A DNA stretch of 64,000 nucleotides, taken from Asparagopsis taxiformis. Lineage: Eukaryota > Rhodophyta > Florideophyceae > Bonnemaisoniales > Bonnemaisoniaceae. The notes under the pieces were generated by a model that was not told the DNA's origin, did no database searches, and worked only from the letters and a program-made list of their open reading frames with translations. The stretch lies in the NCBI GenBank assembly GCA_030407315.1, contig JALQPE010002396.1, positions 1 through 64,000 of the forward strand, written 5' to 3'. This document shows, one piece after another, positions 24,142 through 59,404 of the stretch. The position numbers and the translations under genes were made by a program. Each line of letters begins with the position of its first letter. Position 1 is the stretch's first letter.

Positions 24142-27100
24142 AATGGCCGGAAGCGACACTGAGCGCGCTGCGGAACCAAAGGATACCGTCGAAAGCGTTG
24201 CAGAGAGACTTGCAACGACAGTAGGCGGTGATAAAACACCCTCCGGAGTTTCTGTTGATGGAGGGGCTCCGTCTGCAGCGGGAAGGGAGACGGCAGATAG
24301 CCAGACACCCATTTAGGGAGCAGACGCTGCCATGATAGAGGCAGCAAAAACCCTTGGCGATATATCACCATCTGGGAAAAACACTCTACGCTTTCCATCT
24401 ACTCCTGGGACGGTGAAATCGAAAAACAGGGGGAGGTCTAACGTCCGTGAAGGCGAGGGGAGTCCTGCTGGCATGGAAGGATCAGAGAGTCTGTGATGTG
24501 GATTGACATCAACATTGTCGAATGCAGGACTGAACCTAAAATGATCAATCCGCTAGATTTTGCCAAACCGGAATCAACTTCTCGTCTTGTGCAGGAGGCC
24601 AGAGTGCGCGATCTGGTCAGCAAAATATCTACCGAGGGGATTCTGGAAACTGGCACCCGAATGACCATCTGTGAAACAATGGGGTCAGACGGACGGAAGA
24701 AACTGCAGTGCATTGATGGAGGTCATCGTATCAGCGCTTTGCAGTCGATTGTGGAAAACAAACTGACAGTTGCTGATCGATGGAGACTGAGGAGCATTAG
24801 CGTTGAATTCATCCGACCACCTGGAACCCGTGAAATGTTTCATCCTCTTGAAGTTATGCGAATATCGCAGAAGCTGAACGAAAAGACTCATGACGTGATA
24901 GAAGTTTCTATTGCTGACCACGTCTGTACGGTCATGAAGTTCATGATGATGAAGGGCTTGATGAAGGCGAAGGTAAATCTGTGCACAAAAGTTGTAGTCG
25001 AGAACAAGGTCATTCCAGGTTGTCAGGAAGGAATTATGATGAAGTACGTTTCGATTGCGCAGGGCTTCGGAGACGTAAATAACCCGGCGTTCGAACATTG
25101 GTCAGCTATCCCAAGTCGATTTGCAACTGAAACTAGTCCGCCAGACTCGAAGAATATGCAGGGATGCACTGTGGACGTCCTATTCGCTTCTGCGTTTCGA
25201 AAAGCTTCGGTGGACACCAAACTTGTCATTCTAGAGCTCACTGCAATGTGGACGATGTGGAAACGTAGGAAAGGAGATGGTGGTATAAGTCTAAAGACAT
25301 GCGCGCAAAAGTGGTGCTACAGCATGTGTGAAATATATGACATACTTGAGAAAGCTGTACGGAAAGAAAACTCCTGGCATTCCTCACCTCATCCATGTTT
25401 CAGGAAGTTACATGAAGTACCGGAGCCAGGTGGACGAACACGAAAAACCATACGATATCGCATTTTGACTGTCCTCAAAGATTTCTATCCTTCCGACGCA
25501 CCAACTGGGAGAGGTATACGTGCAGCATTGACGCGGTCTATGATGAAAGAAATCCGTTATGTGGTTTTCAACGGCCCAATTCTATCGGATGACTCTCTCG
25601 ACCATTCCGTCGCGCCTGAAATAGGTGTGCAGGAAAGGCGAACTAGGCGAAAATCCTTGGAAGGGAATACTGCACCTCGACCACGACAAGAATCCGCATC
25701 GTATGGTGATACTTCAAATGCTGCCATTAATCGCTCGGATGTGGTACAGAGTCCAAATGTACTTACCCAACAGCAGACACAGGGCAGTCTAGAAATATCG
25801 GATCGTGTTAACGCTGAGGTCGGTGCTGCAACACAGGTTGGTGAAGAGGCGACAGGGAAAGCGGCAGATTCCGAAAGCGCAAAGCAGGTTACAACGGACC
25901 GCGCAGTGCCTACTGCGCCTACCGAGAACAATTCTTCGAAACCTGGAGATTGTGAAGTTGGGGATGTGTTGCAGAAGAACGTAGGAACTCAAGAGCTTGA
26001 ACCAACTGGTACAAATCGAGGAAGAAATGACCACGGTGATGAAAATGACCTGCAACAACCACCTAGCCCAGTGGCAGCCGGAAGTGCCACGCTCAGACCA
26101 GAGCAAGGTGGAAAGTCGCCGGCGAATATGTCAGTTGGTCATGCAAGAACTGGTCGAGATGGTGAAGGAGGTCCTGAATCTAGGAAGAGCGATGGGTCTG
26201 GAACGAAAGATGTCCGCGAAGAATGTCCCGAAAATTCTTCTGGAAGGACAACGGAGGACCCGATGAAAGGTGTACGAAATCAGGGTGATGGCACTGGAGA
26301 CGCTATGTTATCTACAGCGGATGTCGGCCTACCTGTTTTACCTGAGCTGGAGGACACGGAAACACCTGTTACCAGTTCTACGCCTAGGAAGTTGATGAAA
26401 GCCAAGCACAGCAGTGGTTTCGTGCCCTTAAAGGCAAAGCCGAGGAATACGGAGACGCCGCCAATGATTCTACGATCCAAACGGAAATTGGTGGATGTCA
26501 CCCCTCAAGAGGTTATTGACCTGGTGGGAGAGGATACCAGCAGGCCGCGGCAGAAGAAGAAGCAAAAGATGCGTGAAGACGCAAATTTGCAATCCGGCAA
26601 AGACGCTGCAGTCCACGCGGTTCAAGGAGGTCAGTATTCGGACAGGCAACAAAATGATGTCCCTGACAAAGATGTGGAGGAAGGTATAGAAGCGAAACTG
26701 CCTGTTATCATTCATCCCGACAGTCGAATGAAATACTATGTGAATAGGAAACTGGTCGATACGCTTCGAGCCGAGGTCGCTGAAGCAGCAGCGAGTGCCT
26801 ATTTAGCACAAAATGTTTCCGCTGAGTTTCTCTCGAGGGCTTATTTCCGAGAGAAACGAAATGAAATAGACTTGGTTGGGTTTACAATTCTGGACGGAAT
26901 ATTCAAGTCTTCTACTACTGCAGATGCGATCCACGAACTGCTCCTTCATTTTTCTGCGTTCTTTCAGGAACGTCTCGAGGATGCCAAGAAGAACTCTGAA
27001 TCCGGTGACACCCGCAGAGATCCGGACTGGACACCGTGGTGCATGACTATGATGGATGGGAAAAACTCTGATGAAGAAGGTGAGAAGGGCAGAGGAATCT

Positions 27101-28168
27101 TTATAACAAAACGGAAGAGCTTACGTGATGACCTCGAGGATAACAATAATAATCTCTATCAGAAGAAGATGATTGTTGAGCTCAGTCTAGGTATTTGTGC
27201 GGAAGGTTTGGAATTGAGGACTAGTGGGAAGGACCCGATGGCCTTCCCCAGCACTGGAACTACTTTAGTGCTGACTGGAGAGCGGACTAAACCTCGTGCT
27301 GGACATACAGACTATGAAGTGGGAATCGATGAAGTTAACAGTCCCCCTTCTCCGCCATCCTACTTCATGATGTCAAGCGGCGCAGATGGATTCGGCCTCG
27401 TGCTTGCACCCTACAGTCATGTCTTAAACAAACGTTTATCCCATCCCAACAGAGAGTTATACAGAGTTCCAATGAAGAGGTGTGAAGTACCACCATATTC
27501 TGTTCTTGTCTGCCGAGGGGATGTTTCTTGTTGAAGCACTGGAATTGGCCCTGAGGGGCTCAATTACGTGAGAAAACTTTGACCCTCGATTTCTCCTAGA
27601 AGGAGTGGTCTGAGCGCTCTGAAACCTATCTCATCGTGTTCAGCGTGCCCGAATTAGTCGGGTAGCAACTTCTCCGAAGCTTCTACGACCTTTCTTCATG
27701 GAGATAATAGCGTCTGAAGCTTCAATTTGTTTGTCATAGTTTCAATTAGTAATTAGAAATGCCAGGATGGGTTGCCATCATGGCAGAGGGAAAATGTTAT
27801 GATAAGTGTACACGTGTGGATGATATGATAGAGAAGCCCACGTGTACCAGATTGGCAGCGGGTGCTTGCTAGGACAGACTGTCAGTGACAGTCTGTCTGG
27901 AGCAGCCATGAACAGGCTGTCCTTAGCACCGCCGGTGCACCTCGGCGAGAATACAAATTATGTAGTGAGCTCGCAGATTCAATAAACGCTCGGTAAGCGA
28001 CCAATTCGTTTCAACATTTATCACCACGAGGAAGGCTTTGAGAGCGATAAGGGTCTTCAATACAAGTTCCCGATCCGATCTCACATATTCCTCAAAACTG
28101 AGCAGCATCAAAGAGAAGAAGGAGAATATGTCGTTGGACATTGGGAGGGCAATTCGAAATTGAAGTGA
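24142..28168 (+). pseudogene. ParB-like / 2OG-Fe(II) dioxygenase fusion 1, interrupted by a solo LTR
   Basis: Main frame 24493-27528. The ParB-like domain shows IDGGHRISAL (D75-R79). A helical extension follows, then a long polar linker (about residues 380-700) with basic clusters such as RQKKKQKMR, then the dioxygenase: GHTDYE gives H938 and D940. A Copia solo LTR (27529-28016) splits the domain just before the distal histidine. Beyond it the frame resumes with YHHEEGF and FPIRSHIFL, matching YHGGKGF and LPVRSHLYL of paralogue 2, and ends TGA at 28168. Upstream, 24142-24490 is coding-like (starts MAGSDTERAAEP, many S, T, E, G) but contains a TAG and a TGA before the main frame, so the true N-terminus needs splicing or is broken. 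Predicted to oxidise a DNA base; inactive as it stands. Confidence 0.8.
27529..28016 (+). repeat. Solo Copia LTR 1
   Basis: A 488-bp LTR starting TGTTGAAGCACTGG and ending TTTCAACA. It is related to the full Copia LTRs but of a variant subfamily shared with solo LTR 2. The flanks TTTCT and TTTAT are an imperfect 5-bp target duplication. It is the product of LTR-LTR recombination after insertion into the dioxygenase gene. Confidence 0.95.
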
Positions 28169-28508
28169 TGAAGGGCATCTGTCCAGCCGTGTTGAAGCCT
28201 TAGTTGGGTATGAATCCGTAGAGTAATAAACACAATTCCAATAGAAAATGATAAAAGAGATACTGCATGGATTCTTTATATAGTCAGATCAATTTCACAA
28301 ATGTAACAAACACCACTTGCAGAAAGCTATTCTCCACAGAAAGCTCTACCTACAGGAGCTGCAAATTCTAAACCTCTTCAGTAGATGCAAGAAACGATAG
28401 GAGATAGTAAAACCTGGTATTATATTACATCGTTTACTATCCCCGGTAAAATTTTCAGTTCCTGAGAACAGTAGGAGTCTGGCCGGGTATAAAGTTGGTG
28501 GGTGTAGA

Positions 28509-28775
28509 CCAAGTGCACCAACCCTATTGGCCGAGGTTGTCCAAACTACCACCGGCCAATGGCGTTGGTGCACCTGGCTTTTGGGAGGCCAAAATAATAC
28601 CCGGTATTATTTTGGGTCGGTATAGACCAAGTGCACCAACCCCATTGGCCGAGGTTGTCCAAACTACCACTGGCCAATGGCGTTGGTGCACCTGGCTTTT
28701 GGGAGGCCAAAATAATACCCGGTATTATTCCTAGTTTCTCAAGCCAGGTGCAGTGCACTCATTGGCTGAAGCCCA
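28509..28775. repeat. Set-A palindromes, two tandem copies of about 118 bp
   Basis: Each copy holds GTGCACCAACCC-ATTGGCC facing GGCCAATGGCGTTGGTGCAC, then CACCTGGC, then the core AATAATACCCGGTATTATT (9-bp arms around one C). The second copy is closed on the right by GCCAGGTG. ATTGG/CCAAT boxes occur in every copy. The array lies about 340-600 bases beyond the end of ParB-dioxygenase 1. Confidence 0.9.
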
Positions 28776-29196
28776 CTTATTCGTGGTTCATGTTGAATAC
28801 AGACGCATTTGGTATGTACGCATCAGCTCCACGAGTTGGTGCAAAATGCTGGGAAGTATGTGACTGCAGCATTATGTAGTTATTACTTGAGTGGTTTTGG
28901 GGTAATCACCATGACCAACTCGTACCTGTTTAGCCACTTTGAGTATGAACTCGTCGTATAGCGATTGTATTTGGCCGCAGAAATTAACTGAATTTCGAGT
29001 ATTGCTCTTGATCTGAGTCAAGTGGTCTAGAAATAAACAAAAAATTGAAATCAGAGTTGAAACAGATTGTTCACGTTTGATCCTTTATCAGACTGCAGTA
29101 GCGAAATAAATCTATCTTAATCGTCTCTGTATCGTCGTTATCGGGATCGTACACTCAATCAAGCTTCTCTCCATTCCTGCTTTCCCTCATCCTTCA

Positions 29197-31977
29197 ATGG
29201 CTCCTCGCACTCGCTCCAAACCCTCTGCCCCCGCCCCTGCTCGCGCTTCGACTCGCGGTCGGGCCTCCGCTCGCTTTCGCGCCCCTTCTCGCAGCCCTGG
29301 TCACGATAACTCTGTCACCGCCGAGGTTCAGTTGTCAGACTGTCCCAAAGCTGACCACAGGCTGTCTCCCTTGGATTTGCACAGACCTCCCTTATTCTCT
29401 CGTCATATTAGGGAAGGGAGAGTGCTTGACCTGAAGGAGAAGTTCCTGAGGGAAGGATTCACCTCCTCAATCTCCCGAATCCTTGCCTGCAAAATGCTCC
29501 TTCCCAGTGAAGGCAGCACAACCCCCACCCTTCAAACGTTCTACATCGATGGTGGCCATCGCGTTGCGGCTCTCCAGAAGTGCATTCGTGAAGACCCGGA
29601 AGGGCAACATCCGTATGCTGCTTCATTCAGGAACATCGATGTGGCTTTGATGATTAGGCGCCCAGGGACAGAAGAAGTCTCCGATGAGTACTTCACACCT
29701 TTTGAAGTACTCGGGCTGTCCATTCAAGCAAACACACTCACACATGATGTTGCCCTTGTTTCTTTGGCAGACCGAGTGTGTTCTGTGGTCCAACTGCTCA
29801 CGACCAAGGACATGCTGGGTGAACCGAATCGGAAGTGCATTCAGGTCATCATGGACAGCCAGTTGTCGATATCGAAACTGGGCTACCAAGCCATCAACAA
29901 GCACGTGACTGCTGCGAAAGGCTTCCGGACTGTGAACAACAAAGCGCTTGAGTTCTGGAGTTCCGTACCGAGCATGTTCACCAAGGAAATTCTCGCTGCG
30001 GAACAGGAAAGGGCCGTTAAAGAAGGCCGTGACATCAACGACGATGTCTTCAAGCAGTCCGTAGACATGTATGGCTGCAACATGGATCTCGTATTCATGG
30101 CAGACTTCCGTCGCGGCTCGGAGTATCAACAAAGGTTCATCTTGCTGATCACAGCTCTCTGGACTCGCATGAGAGATCTGCGTCAGTTGAGCAGGACGAC
30201 AAGAGGATTTGGTAGTCCTTTCGTTCGTGTTTTAATTGAAGTGTTCAAGATGTCTGAGCCGGTTGCTGCTCATAAAATGATGGAGCCTCCGCTCGAGCAT
30301 TTCTACTCCGAGCTCAAGAACACTGGGTCAGGAAAGGAGACTGTCATTGCGAACAGTATCGCGGAGACCCTCCTGCACTTCAATACCGACGACAACAGCG
30401 GTACGAAGCATGCTCTCGTCTCCGATGAAATGTATGAGCAGCTTCGCTTTTCCACGGGCGTTGTGGACATGGAAGAAGACCAAAGGGTCATTGTTCACAA
30501 TGAACAGCCATCTGAAGATGCGCCGAAGCCATCTACGCCCCAATCAGATGAGCCTTCTACCCCTTCTACCCATTCAACCCGTTCTACCCGTTCTGGTCCT
30601 ACTCCTCCTGCCCCTTCTACCCCTCCTGCTCCTCGTGCTCATTCTACCCCTTCTACTCCTGCTCCTACTACCCCTCCTCCTCCTGCCACTTCCGTTCCTG
30701 CAGTTGAGCATGCTCAAGGAATCCCTGATGCCACTGTGGCAGGTTCTGAGAAGCAATTGGGATCTGTTCTCCTCCGTCTCCCTCTCAATGCACCACCGCT
30801 TGCGGTGAATGAGCCAGTCGAGACACTTCGCAGGTCGAAACGGCAGAGAACGGAGAGTCTACGGGTTGGCGGCGACAGTCAGGCAGAGTCGGAGGTAGAA
30901 GAAGGGTCCGAAGAGCCCCTTCCGAAGCGCAGAAGACTCGAAGTGAAACGTTCAACGGAAGAGATTCCATTGTTCAGCGATGAGCAAGAAAATCCCGTCC
31001 CCGACAGGTTAGTCGATGAACGGATTATGGATATCCTCCCGAACACCATACCGTCAGACTCTAGGGTCAAGTACTATATCGACAGTAAGCTGTACGAAAC
31101 AATCCGACAGGAGATTTTGAGTGCAGCTGCTGTCGATATGAATTGTACGGCGTGCAATGGTCCAGCTTGCTGTGCAGAGAAGTTCTTTGCAACAGCTAGG
31201 TCAACCCTCAATCTCTTGGGTGCCCATGTACTCAGTGGTATCTTCCGTTCTTCGACTGTGGGCAATGCAGCACATGAACTGTTTACATTCTACGCCCAGA
31301 AGTTCAAACCTGTTCATTCCTCTGCTGAAGACAGTTCCAATGATCCCTGGCATCAGATTCGAAACAAGGGTGAGGTAACAGCAGAGCAACAGGCCTCTCG
31401 TTTGGGAAGTTTCTCTATCTCAAGGAAGAAGATTTGCGACGATCTCGAGCAGATGGATGAACATCAATTCAAGAACAAGATGATTCTCGAGGTCGGCAAA
31501 GCAATCTGTGCCGAGCTAATGTACTTGGGCCTAGGAATCCATGAGCCTGTGGCCTTTCCTAAAACCGGTTTACGTCTTTTGCCGACCTCTGATGGTGCTC
31601 CAGATCAAGACTTGCACACAGACCTACCGGTGGTCATCAATGATTCCGATTTCCCACCTGGAAGATTGTACTTTCTGATGGCAAGCGCGGCTGATGGGTT
31701 CTGGCTTCGTGGAGCGTATTTCAGCCACGTCTTTTTGACGCGTGCAGACGCTGAGAAGTACAAGACGCCTGTTATGGACATCTACGTGCCACCGTATTCT
31801 CTCTTCATCGGTCGTGGTGACTTCTACCATGGAGGAAAAGGATTCAGTAGTTTAGCGGAAAATCGCCTAACATATGGTCTTCCGGTTCGTTCTCATCTCT
31901 ACCTTTTAAGTGACGAAGAAGAATTGGCGGATGCTATCGAAACAGTCAACTACTGGGATGCACCTAGTGCGCGATAA
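29197..31977 (+). CDS. ParB-like / 2OG-Fe(II) dioxygenase fusion 2, intact
   Basis: 926 residues from ATG (MAPRTRSKPSAPAPARAST). Residues 1-40 are basic and Ala/Pro-rich. The ParB-like domain shows YIDGGHRVAAL (D118-R122), followed by a helical extension (to about 430), then a Pro/Ser/Thr linker (about 441-505) and nuclear-localisation-like RRSKRQR and PKRRRLEVK. The dioxygenase domain has HTD (H807, D809), GRGDFYHGG (H878) and PVRSHLYL (R898), the full HxD...H...R set for Fe(II) and 2-oxoglutarate. Among known families the layout is closest to TET/JBP enzymes, which oxidise 5-methylcytosine or thymine, but base preference cannot be read here. It faces the methyltransferase-SET gene tail to tail across 577 bases. 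It is the only uninterrupted member of the family in the window. Confidence 0.8.
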   Translation: MAPRTRSKPSAPAPARASTRGRASARFRAPSRSPGHDNSVTAEVQLSDCPKADHRLSPLDLHRPPLFSRHIREGRVLDLKEKFLREGFTSSISRILACKMLLPSEGSTTPTLQTFYIDGGHRVAALQKCIREDPEGQHPYAASFRNIDVALMIRRPGTEEVSDEYFTPFEVLGLSIQANTLTHDVALVSLADRVCSVVQLLTTKDMLGEPNRKCIQVIMDSQLSISKLGYQAINKHVTAAKGFRTVNNKALEFWSSVPSMFTKEILAAEQERAVKEGRDINDDVFKQSVDMYGCNMDLVFMADFRRGSEYQQRFILLITALWTRMRDLRQLSRTTRGFGSPFVRVLIEVFKMSEPVAAHKMMEPPLEHFYSELKNTGSGKETVIANSIAETLLHFNTDDNSGTKHALVSDEMYEQLRFSTGVVDMEEDQRVIVHNEQPSEDAPKPSTPQSDEPSTPSTHSTRSTRSGPTPPAPSTPPAPRAHSTPSTPAPTTPPPPATSVPAVEHAQGIPDATVAGSEKQLGSVLLRLPLNAPPLAVNEPVETLRRSKRQRTESLRVGGDSQAESEVEEGSEEPLPKRRRLEVKRSTEEIPLFSDEQENPVPDRLVDERIMDILPNTIPSDSRVKYYIDSKLYETIRQEILSAAAVDMNCTACNGPACCAEKFFATARSTLNLLGAHVLSGIFRSSTVGNAAHELFTFYAQKFKPVHSSAEDSSNDPWHQIRNKGEVTAEQQASRLGSFSISRKKICDDLEQMDEHQFKNKMILEVGKAICAELMYLGLGIHEPVAFPKTGLRLLPTSDGAPDQDLHTDLPVVINDSDFPPGRLYFLMASAADGFWLRGAYFSHVFLTRADAEKYKTPVMDIYVPPYSLFIGRGDFYHGGKGFSSLAENRLTYGLPVRSHLYLLSDEEELADAIETVNYWDAPSAR

Positions 31978-32289
31978 TCTGCAAGAATACTGCTTTGCCT
32001 CTCCCTCCACAGGCAGCATCTGCTAATCCTAAGCTAGCTTCGGTAGTATACTTCCTTTACCACAACTAAATCTACTCCTATTCATGACTTTGAAAATATT
32101 AGCACGGTCAGTATACTGCACTATTAGAGTTCCTCTACCTCTCACCCAGCATAGCTTCTACACCCTACATCGTACAGACTCATCTCTTTTCCTTTCCTAC
32201 ATGCATGGCACAATTTTGCAAGACTGCCACAATTCCACATCACTCGAGTAACCAAGGTCTCGGATTGTTCTTCTTAGTATACTAACTAT

Positions 32290-32410
32290 AGTTGAGGTGC
32301 AAACCTGGCAGACAATGGCAGAGCTGCACTTGGGCTGGCCACACCCAAAATAATACCCGGTATTATTTTGGCATGGCAAAGCCCAGGTGCAGCACTATCA
32401 TTGGGCGTGG
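32290..32410. repeat. Set-A palindrome between convergent genes
   Basis: Imperfect palindrome of about 72 bp: GCTGCACTTGGGCTGGCC on the left faces GGCAAAGCCCAGGTGCAGC on the right, around AATAATACCCGGTATTATT. ACAATGG and CATTGG flank it. It sits in the 577-bp space between the 3' ends of ParB-dioxygenase 2 and the methyltransferase-SET gene. Confidence 0.9.
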
Positions 32411-32553
32411 GCTGACTCGCACCGCTCAGCAAATGAAAGTCTGTTATTATCGCTGAGGTAGATTGCAGTATTACAACGTTGTACGAGTTCAGATGCAAGA
32501 CTTTTTATTGCTGATAGTACTCTTGATATCTGTAATTGGACGCCTAAACTGTC

Positions 32554-35500
32554 CTACTTCTCTGCAGTCCAGTAGCGCGATCCATAGTCAACGAATATCC
32601 CTTCCCCAGCTCGAACATCTACTACAACCTGCGCTAGGATGAGATCAGGTTCTGCTACTGCATACTTGAAGTCGCAAGTAGGATTGACGTCTTTGTGAAC
32701 TCGGAACTCCGCATTTTTTCTGCGTTGCACATTTGCAACTCTCTCCATTCCGTCAATGGTCCTACTGTCGTTGAGGTAGCTGCAGACATTGTATTCCGCT
32801 GGTACAAGATATATCTTGTCGACCGGTGCTTCTTCTCCGATGACACTGGTCTCCATCTCCATGTTGAAGTTTTGGAATCTTTCACCAGTACAACCGAACC
32901 CGTCCGGTCCGTACAAGCGACTGCGGTGCGGTTCATTCTCCCCAATCTTCCCGTATAAAATTGTCCCATTATACCATCCAACAACAGAGCCCCTCTCTAA
33001 ATCTTCTGCGGCAAAAACCCCCAATCCTCCCTCTCGAACTGTCGATGCAGCAACAATAACATTGTGAAAGGAGGCATCTACTGCAAGCATCATCTCAGGG
33101 TCAACGGAGAAAACCTTGCCTAAATCTTCTACGCCCCATTCATTCATTGGAACTTCGGCAAGTCTTCGGAGCATGCTTTGATCCCGCGCAACAGAGGAGA
33201 AAAATCGCAACATATGCAGTGGTAGTGAAGATACCGACGGGAATCCATCAGGCGCATCACTTCGATGTCGAAGTCTTTCACTCCCTACATTGCTCCTTAT
33301 CGAGTAATTCCATTCTTTGCTAGCGAGAATACTCGATATGTCATTTTTGGTTACCTCCCCAAAAACTCCATCTCGACCTTGCCTAACAAAGCAATCCAGC
33401 AACAACGGCTGAGCTGATCCATGGCATGTGGCGTCTTTTTCACATCCAATAAACTTGCGATACAGACCATCTCTCATTGTCATGCAAGCTATTGCAGTAG
33501 AATACGTTCCGGAGAATAGATCTACCACAATGTCTCCTGGCTTTGAAAACCTTGAAATAAGCTCTCGAAGTATGGACAGAGGCTTCTGCTCCGCACGTAG
33601 CCTTTTGTCTTCGAAGTTCAATGACTCACCAGGTCCGAGCTTTGGGCAGTTGTCGATTGCGTTCACGTACCCTGGATGTCGTGAAAGGTCACGGTTATGC
33701 AAAGAATAATCAACCATTTCAAACGCGGCAGCTCCCATCCCACGTTTGAAACTGTGCACAAAAAACTCGTGAATGTTGTGTAATGAACACGATTTGTTCA
33801 TTGGGTTTTGGATGAATACGTAGGGACGACGGCTTAGAATGAGAGGAACATCGTCTGTACGCATAGATTGTTCCCCGCTTTCTGCATTTTGAAGAGCTTC
33901 TCCCCACCCAACCAACTGTTTGATACTGGAAAATATCAGGGCATGTCCTCCAGGGCGCAGCATTCGAGAAATGTCCTTTCCGGTACGAAACATTTGTGCG
34001 CTATTGATGTCATCATAGTCTGAATTGGTCTTGCCTTTCTCCCTCCGCGTGTTGAAGGGTGGATCGGTGAGCACAAGTTGTGCTCGTCCATCAATAGTAT
34101 TCCCTGAAAGCATGCCAATGGAATCAGTGTTAACCTGGTGCACTAACCTCGAGGCTGTACAGTTGTAAGCCACGCAAAATCTCTTCATGACCTTTTTCAA
34201 TTGCACAATATGATCCGGTACCCCCTCTTCCTCACCCACTGCCTCCGCTGACGGTGTATCCTCCGCAACATCTTGCATAACCGTGTCCATTGCGGACGAA
34301 GCCCTCCCATCCATGCTGGATGTATACTGGGATCCAGAGTCATTGGTAGGTTTCCTTCCACCTGAACGGCGAGTGCTGTGCTGCATTGATTCATTCGACT
34401 CAAGACGATCTCTTTCTCGAGAAAGAGATCTGGATGCTGCGTTGCGCTGTTCAGTCTCGTAGAGAATTTTCAAGTCGCAGACATCAACTGGCTTCACACG
34501 CATTTCACGGTTCCAGTTCTTCCATACCTTGAGTCTTTCGTGACCATCCAATGCGATGGATTGTTCAATTCTTGCTTCGATGAAGGCGTTCAATCCGAAC
34601 CGGTCAGGCTGATGGAAAAATTTAGTGCGCAGCCCTTCCATCTGGTTCGTACTTGATCCAAATACATCAATGCCTGTCATACAGTCATACACAGACACTA
34701 GTACGGCTTCTGTCAAAGACCTCAACCTAGCATCAACAGAGATATCCAAAGTGCCTGGATAACCTGCATCCTCGCGGACTTTCACTACCGGGGACGGAAG
34801 CAGAAGATCTGAGTAGTGGTCAGGATGTGCCCACCCGTCAGTACGATTAGCAAGACAGATGAATTGGAATTTCTCAGAGTCGAAAACTATGTATGGGCGG
34901 AACATCATGTAGGCGCTTTCGAAGCCCAGAATCATCGCTGTTGTATCCCAGGCAGACATGACCCTTTCCAAAACGACACCCACAGACTCTCCGTTTGCTC
35001 TTGTGCGCTGGAAAGGGGCGAATGTAGAAGTCTCTGTATCCCTCCCAGTTCTACGACGCTTCCTTCCCCGGCGAATGGGTGCATTTCTGTTGAAGCACTG
35101 GAATTGGCCCTGAGGGGCTCAATTACGTGAGAAAACTTTGACCCTCGATTTCTCCTAGAAGGAGTGCTCTATGCGCTCCGAAACCTATCTCATCGTGTTC
35201 AGCGTGCCCGAATTAGTCGGGTAGCAACTTCTCCGAAGCTTCTACAGCCTTCCTTCACGGAGATAATAGCGTCTGAAGTTTCAATTTGTTTGTCATAGTT
35301 TCAATTAGTAATTAGAAATGCCAGGATGGGTTGCCATCATGGCAGAGGGAAAATGTTATGATAAGTGTACACGTGTGGATGATATGATAGAGAAGCCCAC
35401 GTGTACCAGATTGGCAGCGGGTGCTTGCTAGGACAGACTGTCAGTGACAGTCTGTCTGGAGCAGCCATGAACAGGCTGTCCTTAGCACCGCCGGCGCACC

Positions 35501-38666: not shown

Positions 38667-38799
38667 AACGTTTTTCTATCTTTTATAGATGTGTCTACAC
38701 GACTGTTCAGAATTAGCCAACCTCGATTAAGTCGATGGTATCCATCGATACATGCTCCGTATCTTTCTGGCCTCTTCCTTCGTCCAGGGACTGTCTGCA

Positions 38800-38925
38800 T
38801 TCTGTAACAATTATTGCCCTCCACTTGGCAAAATATTCCTCAAAATAATACCCGATATTATTTTCCGCACTACTCTGCCAGGTGGAGCTACGGCATTGGA
38901 TGGGACTGCACAGGCCCCGAAGCTA
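38800..38925. repeat. Set-A palindrome beyond the 37.3-kb gene
   Basis: CCACTTGGCAAAATATTCC and AATAATACCCGATATTATT are followed by TCTGCCAGGTGG and CATTGG: the same arms and core as at 32.35 kb with one core change. It lies between the 3' ends of two convergent genes. Confidence 0.85.
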
Positions 38926-39183
38926 CTAGAGGCGTGCTCAATGACAGGGTAAAACTCTTAACCGTAGTAGACATGACGCTTTCTAGTCGCAGAGTGAGCT
39001 GAAAAATAAGAACGATAGCTATTATTTCCAGTACACCAGGTAGTACGTAGCATGTTAGGGTGCACCTTTTCCACTCATATCCTAGACAGTTTCATATCTA
39101 AAGGTTTCTATTTCTCCTCAGTCTGCCTCGTCGTAATTATTTTACTTCAAAGGTTATGAAACTTTACTTATCCGCTTCCATTA

Positions 39184-40707
39184 TCAATCTTCCTCATCAA
39201 GGAAAACTTCAACGTAGCTTTCACTCCCATCTTCTTCATTTCCATGTCCGCTATCCTCCTCAAACGCGGTACTACGCTGTTCCAAGTGTTGTTCATCGAA
39301 TTTTTCGTTAGTAATTGTCAGTACATCTTCGCAGAGATGCCTCTTACAGATTCGCTCACTCGGCAACATCGCCTTTCCTAATTGTTTGAGCTCGTCTTGT
39401 ACACTTTCTTCGAAGGTCTGACCTGATTGTACCTTGAAAATTCTTAGAATCCCGGAAGCGATTGCATAGACAAATCTGAGTGAATTGCAGGAACGTCGCA
39501 GGAAAACCGTTCTACTCGTGCATTGAAGGAATGCAATTGCAGTGTTCAGGGCTACCTCCAGGATATTGATTCTCCTTCGGATCATCCTTTTGGCCATACA
39601 TCCCGATATCCCGACTTCGTACTGAATGATGACAACCATCTCTTTCCGCTCAGCGATGAATTGTATCAAGATCTCGGAATTCTTGTCATCCACAACTTTC
39701 CGTTCCTCAGGCCTTAGATTTCCGTTGGTCACACGGGTATCAGGGATAACATCTATATCTCGAATGAGATCGTGAGTTGGAAACTCGAAAGTGATAGAGG
39801 CGTCCGTTTCCAACACTAGAGCGAACCCCAGTTCGACAAGGAATCGATGGCGCACCTGCTCTCTAGACATGTTCAGGAAACCGAGCACCTTTGTCAGCGC
39901 AACTTTCGTAACAGCCAAAGATATTTCACGCTTGCTCAACTGTCCATCATTTCCATCTGTTTTCCTCCGCTTCCTAGCCCCTCCGTCAATGCTTCCTGCA
40001 GGCTGGTTTCGGCCATCGCCAGTGGCACCATAAACAACTTCTTCGATTATTTTGTCCGGAATGTACTTGTTCTCCTTCCAGACGTTGAACGCATTCGAAT
40101 CGCGTCCAGAGCTCGAGCCTTCCACTGTACGGCCTGTACCCGACTTTTCCTTCTGAATGTTCCGCAGGAGAGACATCACCACTTGGAATCGAAGCTCGAT
40201 GTTGTTCTTCCCGGTGTTGGATTGGAACACATCTCTCTTGTCATTGCTCTGCTTCGCAAACATCATTGCAGAGAGCAGCCTGCACCCACGGAGGTCGTAG
40301 ATTCCTTGGTTGGTGTAAATTGTCGCCCCAGCATCAGTCTTGTCGACCAGCAAAGGTACAACAGTTCCAAATACTGCACACAGAAAATTGTAAGAAAACG
40401 ATAGTTCTGCTGACTGCGAGATGCGCAAACGGTCCCTGTCCTTGTCAGTCATCCCCTTCTTCGAAGTGCCCTGACTCTGCTGTAATAAACCATCACAGAT
40501 GTCTTTCACACCCTGTAGTTCCGTTACAATAAACTCGACGCGACTCATCAGCTTTTCGATTTTCTGGCGTTGGGACGTTCGATCATCGTCGATTTCATCC
40601 ATCCTCTCCCCAATACGACGAACTTCCCCAGTCACTGTCCTGAATCCCTCTCGAATTATCCCTGCTAGGCAGTCATTTGGATTTTCCTCACGACGCTGAG
40701 ATTCCAT
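39184..40707 (-). CDS. Unrecognised 507-residue coiled-coil protein of set A
   Basis: Intact frame from ATG (MESQRREENPND). Residues about 15-75 have a heptad-like pattern typical of a coiled coil (GEVRRIGERMDEI, QKIEKLMSRVEFI). A middle region of mixed helices and strands carries a nuclear-localisation-like ARKRRKTDG near residue 245. The C-terminus is strongly acidic (EEDGSESYVEVFLDEED). No catalytic motif is seen. It lies tail to tail with the 37.3-kb gene across a set-A palindrome, and about 300 bases from the right GGCAGTA array. It may be an oligomeric DNA- or protein-binding partner of the set; this is inference from position. Confidence 0.6.
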   Translation of the reverse strand: MESQRREENPNDCLAGIIREGFRTVTGEVRRIGERMDEIDDDRTSQRQKIEKLMSRVEFIVTELQGVKDICDGLLQQSQGTSKKGMTDKDRDRLRISQSAELSFSYNFLCAVFGTVVPLLVDKTDAGATIYTNQGIYDLRGCRLLSAMMFAKQSNDKRDVFQSNTGKNNIELRFQVVMSLLRNIQKEKSGTGRTVEGSSSGRDSNAFNVWKENKYIPDKIIEEVVYGATGDGRNQPAGSIDGGARKRRKTDGNDGQLSKREISLAVTKVALTKVLGFLNMSREQVRHRFLVELGFALVLETDASITFEFPTHDLIRDIDVIPDTRVTNGNLRPEERKVVDDKNSEILIQFIAERKEMVVIIQYEVGISGCMAKRMIRRRINILEVALNTAIAFLQCTSRTVFLRRSCNSLRFVYAIASGILRIFKVQSGQTFEESVQDELKQLGKAMLPSERICKRHLCEDVLTITNEKFDEQHLEQRSTAFEEDSGHGNEEDGSESYVEVFLDEED

Positions 40708-41024
40708 CTTCCGTCAAACTTCGCCTCTCGTTCCAATCGCAGAGTGTCACTCCAAACGCTTTTCCTGCAACGAGAATGCTAGCAATAGTAACAAATAATG
40801 CCAACTACTCTACTCATATCCTCGGAAAACGACCGATTTTCTCCTACCGTTTTTGTAACGGTCATTTCCATGTGACCATGCATCCTCTACACTTCTCACT
40901 ACTAGTAGCTTCAGAATAGTTTCCTCTCTTCTCTACTTGAACTCACATGCGAACACATTGTACAACCCTATCCTGGACAACTATTGCAATATTGAATCTC
41001 AGAAAATACCAATCACCAATTACT
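40708..41024. other. No gene recognised; presumed right margin of set A
   Basis: AT-rich sequence upstream of the coiled-coil gene. I looked for a terminal repeat matching the 18.5-19.8 kb region and saw none. CACTACTAGTAG at about 40896 is the only CACTA-like string. Confidence 0.4.
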
Positions 41025-41380
41025 ATCAAGGCAGTACTTGCAGGCAGTACAATTCACTGCCGGAGCCAGTATATTTTACTGCCTGATTCTAATGCCAGGT
41101 CATTTGCCAGGGCAGTACTGTATGGCAGTACATTCCATTGCAAAAATCATCAAAAATCACTGCATTGCACTACTGCCCTGTGGTACCAGCAAAAATTACT
41201 AGAATTTGCTATCGTACAGTACTGAATTCTGCTACATACCGTACTTCCAGGAAATTTTGTATTTTACAGCCTGCGGCACTAGAACTCAAAAAAATTAAAA
41301 TACTAATTTTACTGCCTCAGACGCCAAATTGCTCAGGCAGTGTTTTTTACTGCCTCCGGCAGTAAATTTATTACATTTTT
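41025..41380. repeat. GGCAGTA/TACTGCC array, right part
   Basis: The same mixed-orientation motif array as 17290-18480: AAGGCAGTACTTGCAGGCAG, TTTTACTGCCTGATTC, CAGGCAGTGTTTTTTACTGCC. It abuts the end of ParB gene 3. Confidence 0.85.
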
Positions 41381-41394
41381 TAATCTCAAACTCA

Positions 41395-42922
41395 GTAGTG
41401 GTGCGTTATCCCAATCTCGTTGCGGCGCTCGGAATTGTTCAGCTCACGCAACACTTCGTCGAGAACAGGATGCTTCAGCGTTGCTATAGCCAAACGCGTC
41501 CACCGCCGGGCCGTGTTCGTTGAATTCATCATCCCCATGAACTGCGCCTCGAACAATGTTCGGATGACATCAGACTCACGCAAGTCGCCAGCGTTTTCCA
41601 CGTTATTTGCAACAGCAATCGTACGGATGAACTGCTGGATGGACGACAAGATTCGAACCAGGGAGCGCTCCGTCAGTTGCGTCCCAGTCGTATGGTTCGA
41701 CTCTGCACTCTTGTGGATGATCTCATGAGGCTGAAGATCACTGTCGTCCTTGCGGCGAAGGTAGTACACCGTGTACTGGATGTGACATCCAGAGGCTGAG
41801 TAACCCAGCGCAAGCGGTTTGCGTCCTGTGGCAGCTTGGTTCTGTGCATACGGGTGAGGCGCGTGAAGTCATCCGCAATGCTATGCATAGCATTGAGACG
41901 ATGCAGTCCGTCGATCACGGTCACGTTCGCATTGGCATGGAATTTGCCATTCTGGAACAGACGCGTGGCGGCGGACAGATGCGTGTTCTGCGACCTCAGC
42001 ACCGTCACAGTGATACGCGAAGAGCTCACATACCCCACAGCCAACATATTGTTGCGTAGGTCCTCCACGTGGTCTTCTTTCACATCCCGAAGGGTCACGG
42101 CCGGTTCCACTAGCTGCCTCACCAACACAGTCGCTCCTTCTCCGACGTAATCCGACGTCACAAACTTGGGCACCGTAATTTGCGTCCCCTGCTGCTCACG
42201 AATGCTTTCCGCCACCTCCGGTTCGTCGTCCACCTCGGTTACGTCCTGCGTAGTAGCTTCGGTGACGTTGGAGCGAGCAGGGTGCTTCGTGCCTCCACTG
42301 GAGGCTCTGGCAGAGCGAGCAGGGTGCTTCGTGCCTCCACTGGAGGGTCTTGCAGAGCGAGCAGGGCGCTTCGTGCCTCCCGAAACCGGGACGGAGCGTG
42401 CTGGATGCTTCGTACCCCCCGAACCAGTGATTTCGCCTGCTGGACCGGTACTGGGCATCCGTCCCGAGCTGGCCTGGTTCGTCGCTGCGTTGAAGTTTGA
42501 CGCTGCAGCAGGGGTACGAATGTCGCCAGGGCCATCCTCCGCAGCGGGGCGCATCATCCGAGTATCCCAAGGGTAAAACGCCGCGGCGTATGCTCCACCC
42601 ATCGTCTCCGGCGGTCCCTCGGCGCCATCAAACATGTACGGGAACGGGAGGTCCTTGAACTTGTCCTTAGTCGCAATGTTGCGCACGACGATATAGTCCG
42701 CCTCGTCGGTTTCCGGCAGCTTGTGGTTGTGCAGCGTGCGCGGAAGGCCAACATCGCCACCAGCAGTGCTCACCGAAGCCGTCCCAATATGCACAGCCGC
42801 ACCGTCCACGTCCGCAAACAAATTGACATCGACGTCGCGCTTGAGTCCGCGCGACTCCGCTGACGCGCTCACTTGATCGCCGCAAACCGTTGAAAACAAA
42901 CTGCTGAAATGCGTATCCGCCA
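41395..42922 (-). pseudogene. ParB-like protein 3 (set B), lacking the dioxygenase half
   Basis: Probable start ATG at 42922 (MADTHFSSLFSTVCGDQ). Residues about 165-220 include four copies of a GGTK(H/R)PARS motif, three of them in nearly exact 51-bp units. The ParB-like domain shows VIDGLHRLNAM near 41910. A one-base frame change near 41800 is needed to continue into YTVYYLRRKDD and LQPHEIIHKSAESN, which match the region after ParB in paralogue 2 (TPFEVLGLSIQAN). The frame stops at GITHHY (TGA at 41395), directly against the GGCAGTA array, at a point that in paralogue 2 would be followed by the DFRRGSEYQ block. That block is where the truncated gene at 17310 begins. Confidence 0.75.
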
Positions 42923-43267
42923 TGGTTGTTGAGTTGGAAAGGAAAAGAGATGGTTGACGTTGACGTATTGGAGTGATGTGGATGGTAGGTTTCACGTTAA
43001 GTTGAAGAATGGTCGTGAACGCCAATCGCTGGAAATAATAACACAATAGAAACGAAATTTTGTTAGGTACACACCTATCGTGACCGCTGGAATGCAAGAG
43101 AGGCAATCGAGATGTGAGTGTCCGTTCGGAACGGGCCCGAGTCGGGCTCTCGAAACCTGACGAGGTGGCGTGAAGCAGGCAGTGTCCTTGATGTGTAATG
43201 TGTTAAAATTACAGCTGTCAAGCTAGGCGGCTTTTGGGGCGGCTGCGAGCACCCCTTTATCCGGGGA

Positions 43268-44300: not shown

Positions 44301-44552
44301 TTGGGCTCCTTTTCGAAGCCCATTCGTCTCTTGAATAAATTTAGCACCCGAATCATATACGATTGCCGAGTTGACACCCCGTATGTCTCGTTGGTAGAAA
44401 TAGCAGGGGTTCCACCACTCAGCTGGCGGGAAGTAGTTACTGATTATATGAGATATGGCTTAGCTCCCGCCAAAACCGATAGCTCTGGGCTCAGGTTCTC
44501 CAAATGTGGTTATACGAATGTGTTCTGACAATGCTAGAAGACGAATATCTGC

Positions 44553-44765
44553 ATCCTGATTTGAATTAAAATTTGGGCTATTCTCAAAAACATGCACATG
44601 TGAACATGTTTTTAAGATGGGGGTGTGCCGTACGGCACAGAAATCGATGTTTTTTGCAATATTGTTTCTGCCCGAAATTGTAGAATTTCTGGTCTGGCCA
44701 GCAATGCATCTGAGCTGGACATCCCTATGTCCAGTGGCCGTCCGGATGTCGCTCACCTGGTAAGC
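44553..44765. repeat. Set-B dispersed palindromic repeat, third copy
   Basis: Same block order as at 14.1 and 43.3 kb: facing CTCAAAAACATG arms (one change), GTGCCGTACGGCAC, GAAATTGTAGAATTTCT. It ends in GCTGGACATCCCTATGTCCA, itself an inverted repeat. Confidence 0.9.
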
Positions 44766-45058
44766 GTGATGCACCTGTGACAACCTATGTGACTGGCGGC
44801 CGTGCAGTACAACACTCAAAGGCAGGGAATCACAATCTTTTTAAAAATTTTTCTCTACCACGTATCCGTCACAACTTATTACCTACACCGGTTACGGGTT
44901 TCAAGACCTTTCCAGTGCTGTGTACCCGTATACTCTGTTCCGTTCGATATCAACCAGTGTTCCTCACGAAAGAGTGCAAACGTCACGAGATACGTCGTCA
45001 AATTTGACTGTCTCGCCGAGCGGTCGCCATCCTGTACCGAATTTCCACTCATCCCATT

Positions 45059-48000
45059 ATGACGAATAAGCGCAGGCGCAACAGCAATCCGATCGTTGAC
45101 GACGCAACCGTGCCAATTCTGCGCGAACCCGCTAGCCCTTGGGAGGATTCTAGTGACATGGGTACACGTCGAAACGTAGGTCGCGCCGCCCGCGAAACTA
45201 CTCTCGCTGGCAAAGACTTCCTCCGCCTCTTGCTGGATTTGTTCGCCCACTCAAGTTTCGCAGACTTGACGGACAAGCCGGGAGGTTTCACATACGCGGA
45301 CCTTGGCGCTTGGGTTGCGCAGGGCACGGAAGAACAATTTGTGGCGCTGCAAGGTCGACTCAGCATGTCCTTCAGCGGTCGTTGGAAGAATGCTGGAGTC
45401 GAGGCGGATGTTGCCGAAATCGTCATGGCAGAGATGAACGTTGAGCGAGCCAAGCAGATTGTTCGTCTGGCATTACCGATTGCCGAGTTTTCAAGACAGG
45501 ATGAGCGTATCGGGCAATGGGTTGAGCACTGCATCCTTTCTGGGATCGTGCCGCAGACCTTCCTTATTGGATGTAACATGCTTCCTTCGCCACTACAGGC
45601 GCCGCAGCGCGGGGAACCAAGCGCCTTCGTTCTTGCTCCACCGGAGACGTTCGAGGTATTGATGTATTTCCAAGCGTTGTCTATCATCCGAAATCACAAC
45701 AAGAACCTGCCGCGTCGCCGAATAGGCGACGCGGCCGAAGAGGGGAACGAAGCCGCACGCGTCCCAGCCCATCGGAAAAGCACTAATCGAGCTTGTTACG
45801 TGGTTCAAGTTTTATACCATGCTTGGACCGATGTGGCCTTCGCCGCAAAGTTTTCCAGCTTCGAAGAGTTGATGGCGCCGTACATCATTTTCGACAGCAG
45901 TGAGCATTGGTTTGACGTGCTCGATGAAGGTCTATTCGCACCGATGGAGCAGAAGCTAGATCTCTACCACGACAAAGCTCCCCTGTCTCATCCTGATGGA
46001 TATGGTGGAAAAGTAGAGACAAGAACCAGTGCGCAGCACAGTGCATTTAGGGACCTTGTGAGGAAGTTCTTCGACCGGTTGCAGTTTCTTATCGTCAACC
46101 CGGACCTGTACACCTGGCCGGAGTCCGACCGCTGGGGGGCGCTGGAAATATACTTGTCAAGCGGAAATCCGGACAAGATGCCAGCGTACTTTGACACCCT
46201 CGACGAAGACGTTATGGCTGTCCTCCGCCCGGCACCACAAGTCGCGGACGCAGAAAAGGTCCCCAAGCCGGTTGATGACACTCCCACTCGTCGCAACACA
46301 GGAGGGAGAGGTTTGGTTCCGTCGACAAGACACACAACCAAGCTTCAACTTGGGCCTGGGAGGACCAGTCTTACTGCCCAAGGGCCGTCTCCCCCGTCAC
46401 CGTCACCCTATGCGACAGAAGAGCAGGAAAGTGAAGGGCAGGCTCTCGCAAAGGACTTTCTTTCGAAAATGAGTCAGTATTGCCGGTACGACGTCCCTTT
46501 CGAAGATTTGGTCAGTGCCGACGAGAGCCGAGAACACGTGCCCATCACGGGCAATGTTCAGCTCATTCTGACTGATCCGCCCTACAATGTTCGTCGTAAG
46601 AGGAACGATTCCAACTCTTCGTACGACAGGCTAACTGCAGAAGATATGCAGGCTAGCATCGAAGTGTTTGACGAGCTGTTGCGCCCCGGTGGCCACGGCA
46701 TCGTGTTCTGCTCCGTTTTGCAGTTCTACGAATGGTTCCATTACTTGGAAACGTACAAAGGACCGCAGTCAGAAGGCCCAACCGATGCTGCTGCCAGTGA
46801 TGACGGGTCGGATGAAGAAGAGGTTACGTCCATGAATTCGGACTCCGAAGCATCGCAGCACAGTGGCGAAGAAAGTGCGGATGAGGAGGACGAGGAGGAC
46901 GAGGAGGAGGAGGACGTCGTTCGAAATTCAGTTTTCTTCGTTGACGAGGTACCTCTGTTGTTTGTCCGATTACCTGGGCACCTCTATCAAATGCCGGGGC
47001 GGAAGAGGTACCAACGCATGAACATGGCAGAGGTCGCTATCCACTTCTGGAAGCGAGGTGTTCCGTTCAAGACCGGAAGCGAGATGGTGGCCTATAGGAA
47101 CTACGGATACATGGACGGCACGTACCCGGCGTGGTGCAACGTCACCATCAATATGCCCGCCATCGATTCGAATGAGATGGTGTGGCGAACAAGGAGCACA
47201 ACCGGTGCTACGGTCAGAGTTCGTGCAGAGCAGAAGAGCGTCGCTCTCATGATGGAGTTGATCAGCCAGCATTCACAGCCTGGTGATATTGTTGTCGATC
47301 CATTCTCTGGCACTTTCGCAACGGGAAAAGCAGCTATGAGCTTGCCTGAGCACCGTGTTTTCGTCGGCAGTGACATGGGCAAATTGTGTGTGGCACGATC
47401 GCTTCCAAAGCTGTGTGCAGTCATGTCACGTGTAATTCTTTCAAACAACACTGACATGAGGGTCACGACAGAAGCGAAACAGAGTGCTGCGAAGTTCTTG
47501 GCGTCCCCCTCTGTCACGATGCGTACGCAGAGGGAACGCAGGATCATCGAACCCCCACCTGGCCTTCCCCTGTACCAGAGGTTCCCGAAATATATTCGGC
47601 AGTACCTCTGGCAGCTGTGCCCAGAGTCGATTGCGTCGCACGAGCACATGGAAAAACCGGTACATTATTGGCCACCTTCCCTGCGCCGCTGGTTGCAAAC
47701 TGAAAACCCTCGCGTGATGCGGGCACACGATTGTGTTGCGAAAAAATTGAGCGTTCGACCATCGCTGATTAAGCATCCAAATGCAGGAAGAGGGCTCTTC
47801 GCTGAACAGACCTTTAATGTTGGCGACGAAGTATGTGCATACTACGGAACTGTTGTGTACTCTGATATGAGCAAGGAGTCGATGCGGTTCGCGTACGGAG
47901 AGGGTCACATGGCGATAACGAAGGAAACATTCTTGATGTATGCCATCAAGCTGTATGCAACAGCGGAGGACGACGAAAACATCGAGCATCCAATTTGGAT

Positions 48001-48259
48001 TGTTCCGGCTCCGTTCTGTTCGGCGCAGTTCATCAACGACCCGCGGTATTTGCGAGGTGAGGATACTCCGGCGGAAGACACCAGGCGGATGGCCAACGTC
48101 GAGTTTGTCGAGAACTACAGCAGCGGTTCGACGGGGAAGAAGCTCAAGGCGAAGGACCTAGAAAATCCAAAGATCATTGTAGTACGTGCAATCCGCGATA
48201 TCCGTCCAGGGCAGGAGGTCTACGTTCATTATGGGACAGCGTTTAGAGCATGGAATTAG
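45059..48259 (+). CDS. N6(N4)-DNA methyltransferase / SET fusion 2, intact
   Basis: 1,066 residues from ATG (MTNKRRRNSNPIVDD). A helical N-terminal half has no ParB signature. The methyltransferase has LTDPPYNVRR (motif IV, D506) and RPGGHGIVFC; a very acidic insert at about 579-621 rich in D, E and S; then GDIVVDPFSGTFATG (motif I, D747). This is the beta-class order of the N6/N4 family (DPPY). The C-terminal SET-like domain (about 895-1066) has GRGLFAE, a FINDP block in place of the usual NHSC, MANVEFVE and the closing VYVHYGT. The match to the 32.6-kb gene extends through both domains. The ParB module here is encoded by the divergent neighbour (42922-41395). Likely nuclear, adding methyl groups to DNA and perhaps to histones from S-adenosylmethionine. 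The stop is TAG. Confidence 0.85.
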   Translation: MTNKRRRNSNPIVDDATVPILREPASPWEDSSDMGTRRNVGRAARETTLAGKDFLRLLLDLFAHSSFADLTDKPGGFTYADLGAWVAQGTEEQFVALQGRLSMSFSGRWKNAGVEADVAEIVMAEMNVERAKQIVRLALPIAEFSRQDERIGQWVEHCILSGIVPQTFLIGCNMLPSPLQAPQRGEPSAFVLAPPETFEVLMYFQALSIIRNHNKNLPRRRIGDAAEEGNEAARVPAHRKSTNRACYVVQVLYHAWTDVAFAAKFSSFEELMAPYIIFDSSEHWFDVLDEGLFAPMEQKLDLYHDKAPLSHPDGYGGKVETRTSAQHSAFRDLVRKFFDRLQFLIVNPDLYTWPESDRWGALEIYLSSGNPDKMPAYFDTLDEDVMAVLRPAPQVADAEKVPKPVDDTPTRRNTGGRGLVPSTRHTTKLQLGPGRTSLTAQGPSPPSPSPYATEEQESEGQALAKDFLSKMSQYCRYDVPFEDLVSADESREHVPITGNVQLILTDPPYNVRRKRNDSNSSYDRLTAEDMQASIEVFDELLRPGGHGIVFCSVLQFYEWFHYLETYKGPQSEGPTDAAASDDGSDEEEVTSMNSDSEASQHSGEESADEEDEEDEEEEDVVRNSVFFVDEVPLLFVRLPGHLYQMPGRKRYQRMNMAEVAIHFWKRGVPFKTGSEMVAYRNYGYMDGTYPAWCNVTINMPAIDSNEMVWRTRSTTGATVRVRAEQKSVALMMELISQHSQPGDIVVDPFSGTFATGKAAMSLPEHRVFVGSDMGKLCVARSLPKLCAVMSRVILSNNTDMRVTTEAKQSAAKFLASPSVTMRTQRERRIIEPPPGLPLYQRFPKYIRQYLWQLCPESIASHEHMEKPVHYWPPSLRRWLQTENPRVMRAHDCVAKKLSVRPSLIKHPNAGRGLFAEQTFNVGDEVCAYYGTVVYSDMSKESMRFAYGEGHMAITKETFLMYAIKLYATAEDDENIEHPIWIVPAPFCSAQFINDPRYLRGEDTPAEDTRRMANVEFVENYSSGSTGKKLKAKDLENPKIIVVRAIRDIRPGQEVYVHYGTAFRAWN

Positions 48260-59401: not shown

Positions 59402-59404
59402 AGC

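Follow-up and report, generated by a model that had tools for sequence, protein, structure and literature searches.

ParB-dioxygenase-like and DNA methyltransferase–SET fusion genes as cargo of two nested giant DNA transposons in the red alga Asparagopsis taxiformis

ParB-methyltransferase fusions in algal transposons and TET/JBP dioxygenases in fungal transposons have already been published. Here, we analyzed a 64,000-nucleotide stretch of the red alga Asparagopsis taxiformis (contig JALQPE010002396.1, positions 1 to 64,000; hereafter the window). It is a nest of mobile elements, two of which, giant DNA transposons of CACTA and Plavaka kind termed element A and element B, hold fused enzyme genes. 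A is nested in B, and together they account for three ParB-dioxygenase genes, one ParB-methyltransferase-SET gene and one methyltransferase-SET gene without ParB. The genes are cargo in two transposon lineages, have been amplified and retain conserved enzyme motifs. We consider it probable that they are accessory cargo whose likeliest role is self-targeted epigenetic control of the elements' own copies.

In Ectocarpus, the 1104-aa accessory protein of the 21.5-kb transposon Sola1-1_Ec32 joins a ParB-like domain to an N4/N6 DNA methyltransferase, and the transposon that encodes it has been proposed as the target of its binding and modification (PMC12477816). The Asparagopsis elements likewise carry a fusion of ParB to an N4/N6-type methyltransferase as giant DNA transposon cargo, encoded in Sola1-1_Ec32 on the strand opposite to the transposase; the accessible text on that element mentions neither a SET domain nor a dioxygenase, and its transposase belongs to another superfamily (PMC12477816). 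The same paper cites green and red algal ParB-methyltransferase cases (Iyer 2011; Petroll 2025). Fungal Plavaka, EnSpm and other transposons carry TET/JBP cargo that is common to different lineages (Kojima 2025, PMC12730594), and the dioxygenase-like cargo described here is similarly spread across Plavaka-kind and EnSpm-kind elements. In contrast to the present locus, the accessible text on the fungal elements contains no ParB and describes no DNA methyltransferase cargo; their PE type has HxE, whereas the algal proteins have HxD and lack a TET/JBP profile match. SET histone methyltransferases are also known as transposon cargo, in oomycete HarbingerS and MuDR elements, for which the accessible text mentions no fusion to a DNA methyltransferase (cited in PMC12730594). 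Giant Plavaka repeats are present in Amoebidium (PMC11244446) and EnSpm-Plavaka elements in a green alga (PMC12633428). A further parallel is the VANDAL/VANC system of Arabidopsis, in which silencing is lifted by a sequence-specific factor that the transposon itself encodes. VANC is not known to be an enzyme fusion like those of A and B. Petroll's 2025 work reportedly describes how a single giant Plavaka lineage proliferated. A full-text literature search covering titles, the starts of abstracts and few subscription papers found neither a fusion of ParB to a dioxygenase nor a transposon-borne fusion of a DNA methyltransferase to SET, nor the joint carriage of both; the original prediction knew of no described system with this combination.

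Fusion genes inside elements A and B

Element A (17277..41400) is a 24.1-kb transposon with the ends CACTACTG and CAGTAGTG and a 2-bp target duplication. Sequence common with a second copy on contig C2634 starts at 17277 and stops at 41400. Both ends were read in these two copies, which are flanked by GT/GT (window) and AC/AC (C2634). In the searched assembly (141.5 Mb in 3,156 contigs, the window being contig C2270), there are 262 exact occurrences of the 24-base left end and none of the reversed control; copy numbers here and below refer to exact left ends rather than entire elements, and the assembly contains duplicate contigs. The CACTA ends, the short target duplication and subterminal repeats, with 17 of the 20 occurrences of GGCAGTA in the window's A within the two terminal kilobases, are features of CACTA/EnSpm transposons. 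The putative transposase of A (19790..23526, plus strand), frame-broken in the window and a single 1247-codon frame on C2634, matched no Pfam or PHROG family and was not recognizable there as a CACTA-type transposase.

Three fusion genes lie in element A, whose genes on C2634 are intronless. ParB-dioxygenase gene 1 (24493..27531, plus strand; DGGHR at 24715, HTD at 27304) spans 1184 codons from stop to stop on C2634. In the window, a solo long terminal repeat (LTR; about 27527..28016) lies inside it just short of the gene end, an insertion absent from all 21 fetched loci with a match spanning the insertion point. ParB-dioxygenase gene 2 (29197..31977, plus strand, 926 aa; DGGHR at 29548, HTD at 31615, H at 31828, R at 31888) is intact in the window and has one stop in the C2634 copy. 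The ParB-methyltransferase-SET gene, which had been predicted by joining fragments across 36547–32554, is a single intronless 1169-aa frame on C2634; in the window, a solo LTR (35088..35575, flanks ATTTC/ATTTC) splits it into an N-terminal part (35573..36547, minus strand; DGAHR at 36319) and a C-terminal part (32554..34983, minus strand; DPPFN at 34065, DLFSGT at 33522, SET at 33.0–32.6 kb). Just two of the fetched copies cover this point: C2634, which lacks the LTR, and C2232, where an LTR sits at the corresponding position. The C2232 copy of A has the same LTR family at further places (L044 1391–1879, L042 3092–3583). Introns were rejected as the cause of the split genes, as other copies read through; the breaks are solo LTRs, the insertion of A and indels.

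Element A sits in element B: the sequences to either side of A adjoin each other on contig C254, giving an empty site with an open 1364-codon frame across it. A had thus jumped into the ParB-dioxygenase gene of B and moved its halves apart. The ParB motif at 41.9 kb in the original prediction belongs to this gene, whose other half (17276–14597) lies outside the 24142–48259 piece that the prediction concerned. The N-terminal half (41403..43202, minus strand; DGLHR at 41912) has a frame change near 41.8 kb in the window, and the C-terminal half (14597..17016, minus strand; HND at 15223, PGSHK at 15124, H at 15001, R at 14953) has about 258 extra bases (15765–16022) relative to C254. B further carries an intact methyltransferase-SET gene (45008..48259, plus strand; DPPYN at 46574, DPFSGT at 47297, SET at 47786–48224), in whose product no ParB domain was found, and a Plavaka transposase region (48370..52562, minus strand) with a PF18759 match of E 1.2e-23 (84.4 bits, cut-off 26.3), which adjoins the cargo on C254 too. 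The C254 copy holds the ParB-dioxygenase frame, the Plavaka transposase, small frames and the methyltransferase-SET gene. The small frames, of 434, 261 and 189 codons, lie between the transposase and the methyltransferase-SET gene (50934–53313; end of L048, start of L046), and about 2.4 kb of this stretch (51408–53763) is missing from the window copy.

The window segment of B that runs up to the insertion of A (12107..17276) begins with the end TCTGTGTTCTCGG, with CG just before it at 12105–12106. The C254 copy of B has its left end cut within a tandem array, and ends were taken from other copies: TCTGTGTTTTCGGAAGTGGACGCGGACGTCC and an inverted near match are separated by 21.7 kb on C474, the single copy with both ends read, and CG stands on either side of it. 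The end letters, CG-TCTGTG...CACAGA-CG, differ from both published Plavaka end types, this transposon group being described with TGT..ACA or CATCA..TGATG termini and target duplications of 2–3 bp (PMC12730594). The exact 33-base left end of B occurs 1,237 times in the assembly, against 0 for the control, and is preceded by CG in 1,205 cases. Ten short stretches were fetched for B ends, which were present in six and absent in four (L054, L057, L061 and L063), and all ends read (L050–L053, L055, L056, L058–L060 and L062) adjoin CG. This suggests that B inserts at CG and duplicates it, although the CG could alternatively be the element's own last bases; B is thus possibly a CG-targeting transposon. 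All 40 scored copies (of 1,709 candidates) of one 2.5-kb piece of B are 100% identical after rounding; this points to a possible recent burst, subject to the caveat that the assembly contains duplicate contigs. B may make up close to a fifth of the assembly if each end stands for a full element, shorter derivatives with the same ends being possible.

The fusion genes lie within the element ends, are repeated with the elements and are found in fuller copies on C2634 and C254, and C254 preserves the site of B empty of A; they are therefore cargo of two nested transposons and not merely neighbors of transposons. Most scored copies are open: a stop falls inside the matched stretch in 2 of 49 scored copies of ParB-dioxygenase gene 2 (of 6,958 candidates, window included) and in 1 of 106 matches to the dioxygenase half of the B gene (of 3,550 candidates), many of whose frames reach at least 1364 aa. 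The ratio of nonsynonymous to synonymous polymorphism (pN/pS) is 0.36 for the first half of ParB-dioxygenase gene 2 across 30 copies (57 synonymous and 65 other distinct variants), 0.34 for the B methyltransferase-SET gene in one pair (13 synonymous, 15 other) and 0.40 for the methyltransferase-SET part of the A gene in one pair (10 and 14, respectively). These values suggest that three of the four genes in the comparison are constrained, with few changes behind the pairwise estimates.

Domains of the fusion proteins

The two methyltransferase-SET proteins that had been proposed were both recovered by Pfam. N6_N4_Mtase (PF01555) is matched with E 3.1e-15 and 5.6e-14 at 45059–48256 (plus strand) and 32557–34983 (minus strand), and SET (PF00856) with E 2.6e-6 (28.2 bits) in B; for A, the interrupted window copy falls under the cut-off of 22.4 bits (E 1e-3, 19.9 bits) and the uninterrupted C2634 copy exceeds it (25.3 bits). 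Among 8,000 database candidates scored, seven proteins align with the B protein over 97–100% of the queried part, one at 98% identity (P0001) and six at 30–36%; six of the seven carry PF00856. Across nine sequences that are 24–98% identical to the first, the DPP(Y/F)N motif, the D..GT motif of the S-adenosylmethionine (AdoMet) site and key SET residues are invariant. The usual NHS of SET proteins reads ND in this alignment, and the SET domain of EZH2 gives a 24-position match (E 9.3e-6). Judged from these matches, the methyltransferase and SET assignments are solid. DPP(Y/F) precedes the AdoMet motif, as in beta-class N6-adenine DNA methyltransferases, and the solved structures that match best belong to adenine-specific enzymes (DpnA, E 8e-14; CcrM, 2.9e-8; MboIIA, 1.4e-6); motif order and structures together point to an adenine-type, beta-class enzyme acting at N6. 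Among PHROGs, phrog_67 is matched by both methyltransferases (E 2e-23 for A and 1.4e-16 for B), and phrog_1033 was matched as well. A viral origin was rejected, as scans of viral contigs with P0002 and with the methyltransferase-SET protein of the window gave no relative; the nine-sequence alignment had at least one short match (43 residues) among the 600 viral stretches listed.

Four DGxHR motifs, corresponding to the GxxR-type motif of the ParB/Srx superfamily and predicted near 24.7, 29.5, 36.3 and 41.9 kb, are present at 24715, 29548, 36319 and 41912, and the evidence that each marks a ParB-like domain differs between proteins. In the A methyltransferase-SET protein the domain matches a PHROG "ParB-like partition protein" with E 2.6e-6 (6.3e-5 for the whole protein). 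By tblastn it matches seven Leptospira phage records (best E 2e-5), five of them annotated ParB, and it also matches plasmid ParB proteins, seven of seven so annotated; the matches to named ParB proteins (E 2e-5 and 1e-4) cover 54–58% of the domain length at 28–34% identity. Pfam gave no ParB match in this protein, even for the DGxHR piece alone. For the three dioxygenase fusions, the resemblance comes from profile alignment with that ParB: the score is 28.7, compared with a mean of 11.9 (s.d. 2.5, maximum 23.9) in 200 shuffles, and the motif order is the same, but the hhalign probability is 34–44%; one of the three domains has weak matches to DndB (E 0.13) and GmrSD (E 0.32). ParB is therefore confirmed, by sequence matches, for the methyltransferase-SET protein and tentatively supported for the three dioxygenase fusions. 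An extension after ParB, which had been taken to be helical and common to all these proteins, is shared by the two ParB-dioxygenases of A (32% identity over 318 aa) and was not seen between them and the methyltransferase protein.

The three dioxygenase domains of the original prediction stand at the level of motifs. HxD, a distal H and R are invariant in a three-way alignment of proteins that are 22–34% identical to the first; in the product of ParB-dioxygenase gene 2, the second H stands 71 residues after the first, and the R a further 20 after that. Searches of Pfam, PHROGs and PDB sequences, and of NCBIfam for two of the three proteins, returned no TET/JBP or other dioxygenase match, and the proposed TET/JBP identity is accordingly carried by the HxD...H...R pattern without a profile match to the family. 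No ParB-dioxygenase was found at E ≤ 0.001 among 5.8 billion proteins (about 8,000 candidates scored per search, one search perhaps swamped by low-complexity words). The missing profile matches would agree with a C-terminal domain other than a DNA dioxygenase, such as a PhyH-type enzyme with a different substrate or a DNA-binding domain that lacks activity, in which case the ParB fusions would be DNA-binding accessory proteins of transposition. PGSH in the B protein is reminiscent of PhyH-like enzymes. We regard this explanation as very unlikely, given catalytic-type residues that stay invariant between such divergent proteins and a profile resemblance to one of five host 2-oxoglutarate (2OG) proteins (26.5, compared with a maximum of 22.5 in 40 shuffles; about 30 columns, probability 7.6%); the scores of the other four fell within their shuffles.

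Neighboring elements and further genes

The view of the region as one gene cluster was rejected in favor of two nested elements, a third DNA transposon at 6568–12104, an LTR retrotransposon at about 341–6555, and a gypsy element. Of 24 other assembly places scored for the third transposon, 21 match exactly 6568–12104 and two match partially or in pieces, with the right end the same or nearly so. Contig C2269 (C2269:114664–121799) repeats the entire 7,141-base window query at 100% (rounded) and is the window's own locus a second time, as a duplicate or second-haplotype contig. The third transposon encodes a putative transposase (9159–11273, minus strand) without a Pfam family that is 31–44% identical to that of element A; the two possibly represent a new transposase lineage. 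This open reading frame was also considered as the transposase of B and rejected, as it is part of the third transposon, while B has Plavaka.

A gypsy LTR retrotransposon (52563..60265) is inserted in element B and is not cargo; beyond it, B continues with minisatellite-like repeats (60266..61079). Two genes without a recognized domain complete element A, one at 37279..38666 (plus strand; broken in the window, 462 aa on C2634, L040 4658–6046) and one at 39184..40707 (minus strand, 507 aa). On C2634, A is flanked in GC-rich DNA by same-strand frames of 845 and 286 codons (L038 664–3201 and L040 8861–9721), which may be a single gene cut by A.

Modified base and role of the cargo

Under self-targeted epigenetic control, the ParB module would bind or load onto element DNA, for example at the repeats that cluster near the termini of A. 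The predicted N6-adenine DNA methyltransferase and histone-lysine methyltransferase would then mark the element as permissive chromatin, and the putative 2-oxoglutarate dioxygenase would oxidize a modified base and so remove or convert a mark. In this manner the element could keep its own copies transcribed and mobile. N6-methyladenine (6mA) is linked with permissive chromatin in other eukaryotes (PMC12695648), and CcTet, a fungal TET relative, is described as acting on both 5-methylcytosine (5mC) and 6mA (PMC12730594), which makes an adenine eraser chemically plausible. The absence of ParB from the B methyltransferase-SET protein means that its targeting would need another N-terminal region or a ParB-dioxygenase partner. 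This scheme retains much of what had been proposed, namely a targeting module that serves different DNA-modifying activities and a SET domain that couples DNA to histone methylation, and it fits the domain make-up; an opposing action on 5mC is doubtful, as no host C5 methyltransferase was found.

Several observations bear on the modified base. C5 cytosine methyltransferases (PF00145) gave no match in the host genome in a search that was positive in 10 of 14 control genomes, those ten being bacteria and archaea, and that reads exons separately, so that a heavily interrupted or unassembled gene could escape it; 5mC may thus not be the substrate. MT-A70 likewise had no host match, but no control genome was positive either, and AlkB-like PF13532 had seven host matches. 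C>T changes are not raised at CG (12 of 168 CG compared with 47 of 632 sites), and the CpG observed/expected ratios of 0.83 for A, 0.96 for B and 0.82 for the gypsy element indicate no strong depletion. Taken together, the PF00145 result, the lack of a C>T excess and the CpG ratios favor 6mA, thymine or another base as the substrate over the removal of 5mC. We therefore find it distinctly unlikely that the ParB-dioxygenases are TET-like proteins that strip host cytosine methylation from the element as a counter-defense, as proposed for fungal transposons with TET genes. That explanation would agree with the TET/JBP cargo of fungal Plavaka and EnSpm elements (PMC12730594) and with B ends that follow CG, but the missing TET/JBP profile match also speaks against it.

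The same lack of a host C5 methyltransferase and of CG decay would suit a different use of the enzymes, in which bases written by the element (6mA, oxidized or hypermodified) flag it to the transposase or repair factors or shield it from nucleases, as DNA modification does in phages. The methyltransferase and ParB domains match phage families (phrog_67, phrog_1033), in keeping with such self-marking for protection or transposition. However, the SET domain points to chromatin, and the two further genes of A have no recognized domain, so that no nuclease or glycosyltransferase partner is seen; we consider this use of the marks rather improbable, yet more credible than cytosine demethylation.

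Returning to self-targeted epigenetic control, a number of findings weigh against it. It is just as conceivable that the transposase binds the terminal repeats of A, as happens in ordinary CACTA elements, and the B methyltransferase-SET protein indicates that ParB is not required for every copy of the enzyme. ParB-dioxygenase gene 1 bears no sign of constraint between the window and C2634 (pN/pS 0.86; 8 synonymous and 23 other changes), the window copy being broken, and the LTR at the same place of the ParB-methyltransferase-SET gene on C2232 implies that an interrupted gene may not have halted the spread of the lineage. The unraised C>T rate at CG leaves no direct sign of a 5mC-based silencing that is being fought. 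The dioxygenase-like proteins, as reported above, lack both database relatives and profile matches. Finally, some contigs duplicate a locus, so that the number of copies and their near-identity are overestimated to some extent.

A wider proposal, which we put forward tentatively and hold to be improbable as it stands, is that the two lineages share a self-contained marking kit in a host with no cytosine DNA methyltransferase detected: methyltransferase-SET proteins would write a joint DNA–histone mark, ParB-guided dioxygenases would erase or convert the adenine mark, and transposons would write and erase most of the host's DNA methylation for their own use. Self-targeted epigenetic control by the cargo would show that transposons can bring along, in place of a single anti-silencing factor, several matched modifiers of DNA and histones that are directed by a partition domain of bacterial type and common to different lineages. 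A methyltransferase fused to SET would tie the DNA mark physically to the histone mark. As the genome holds hundreds of near-identical copies, the effect of this cargo on 6mA, histone marks and expression would be directly measurable in the host.

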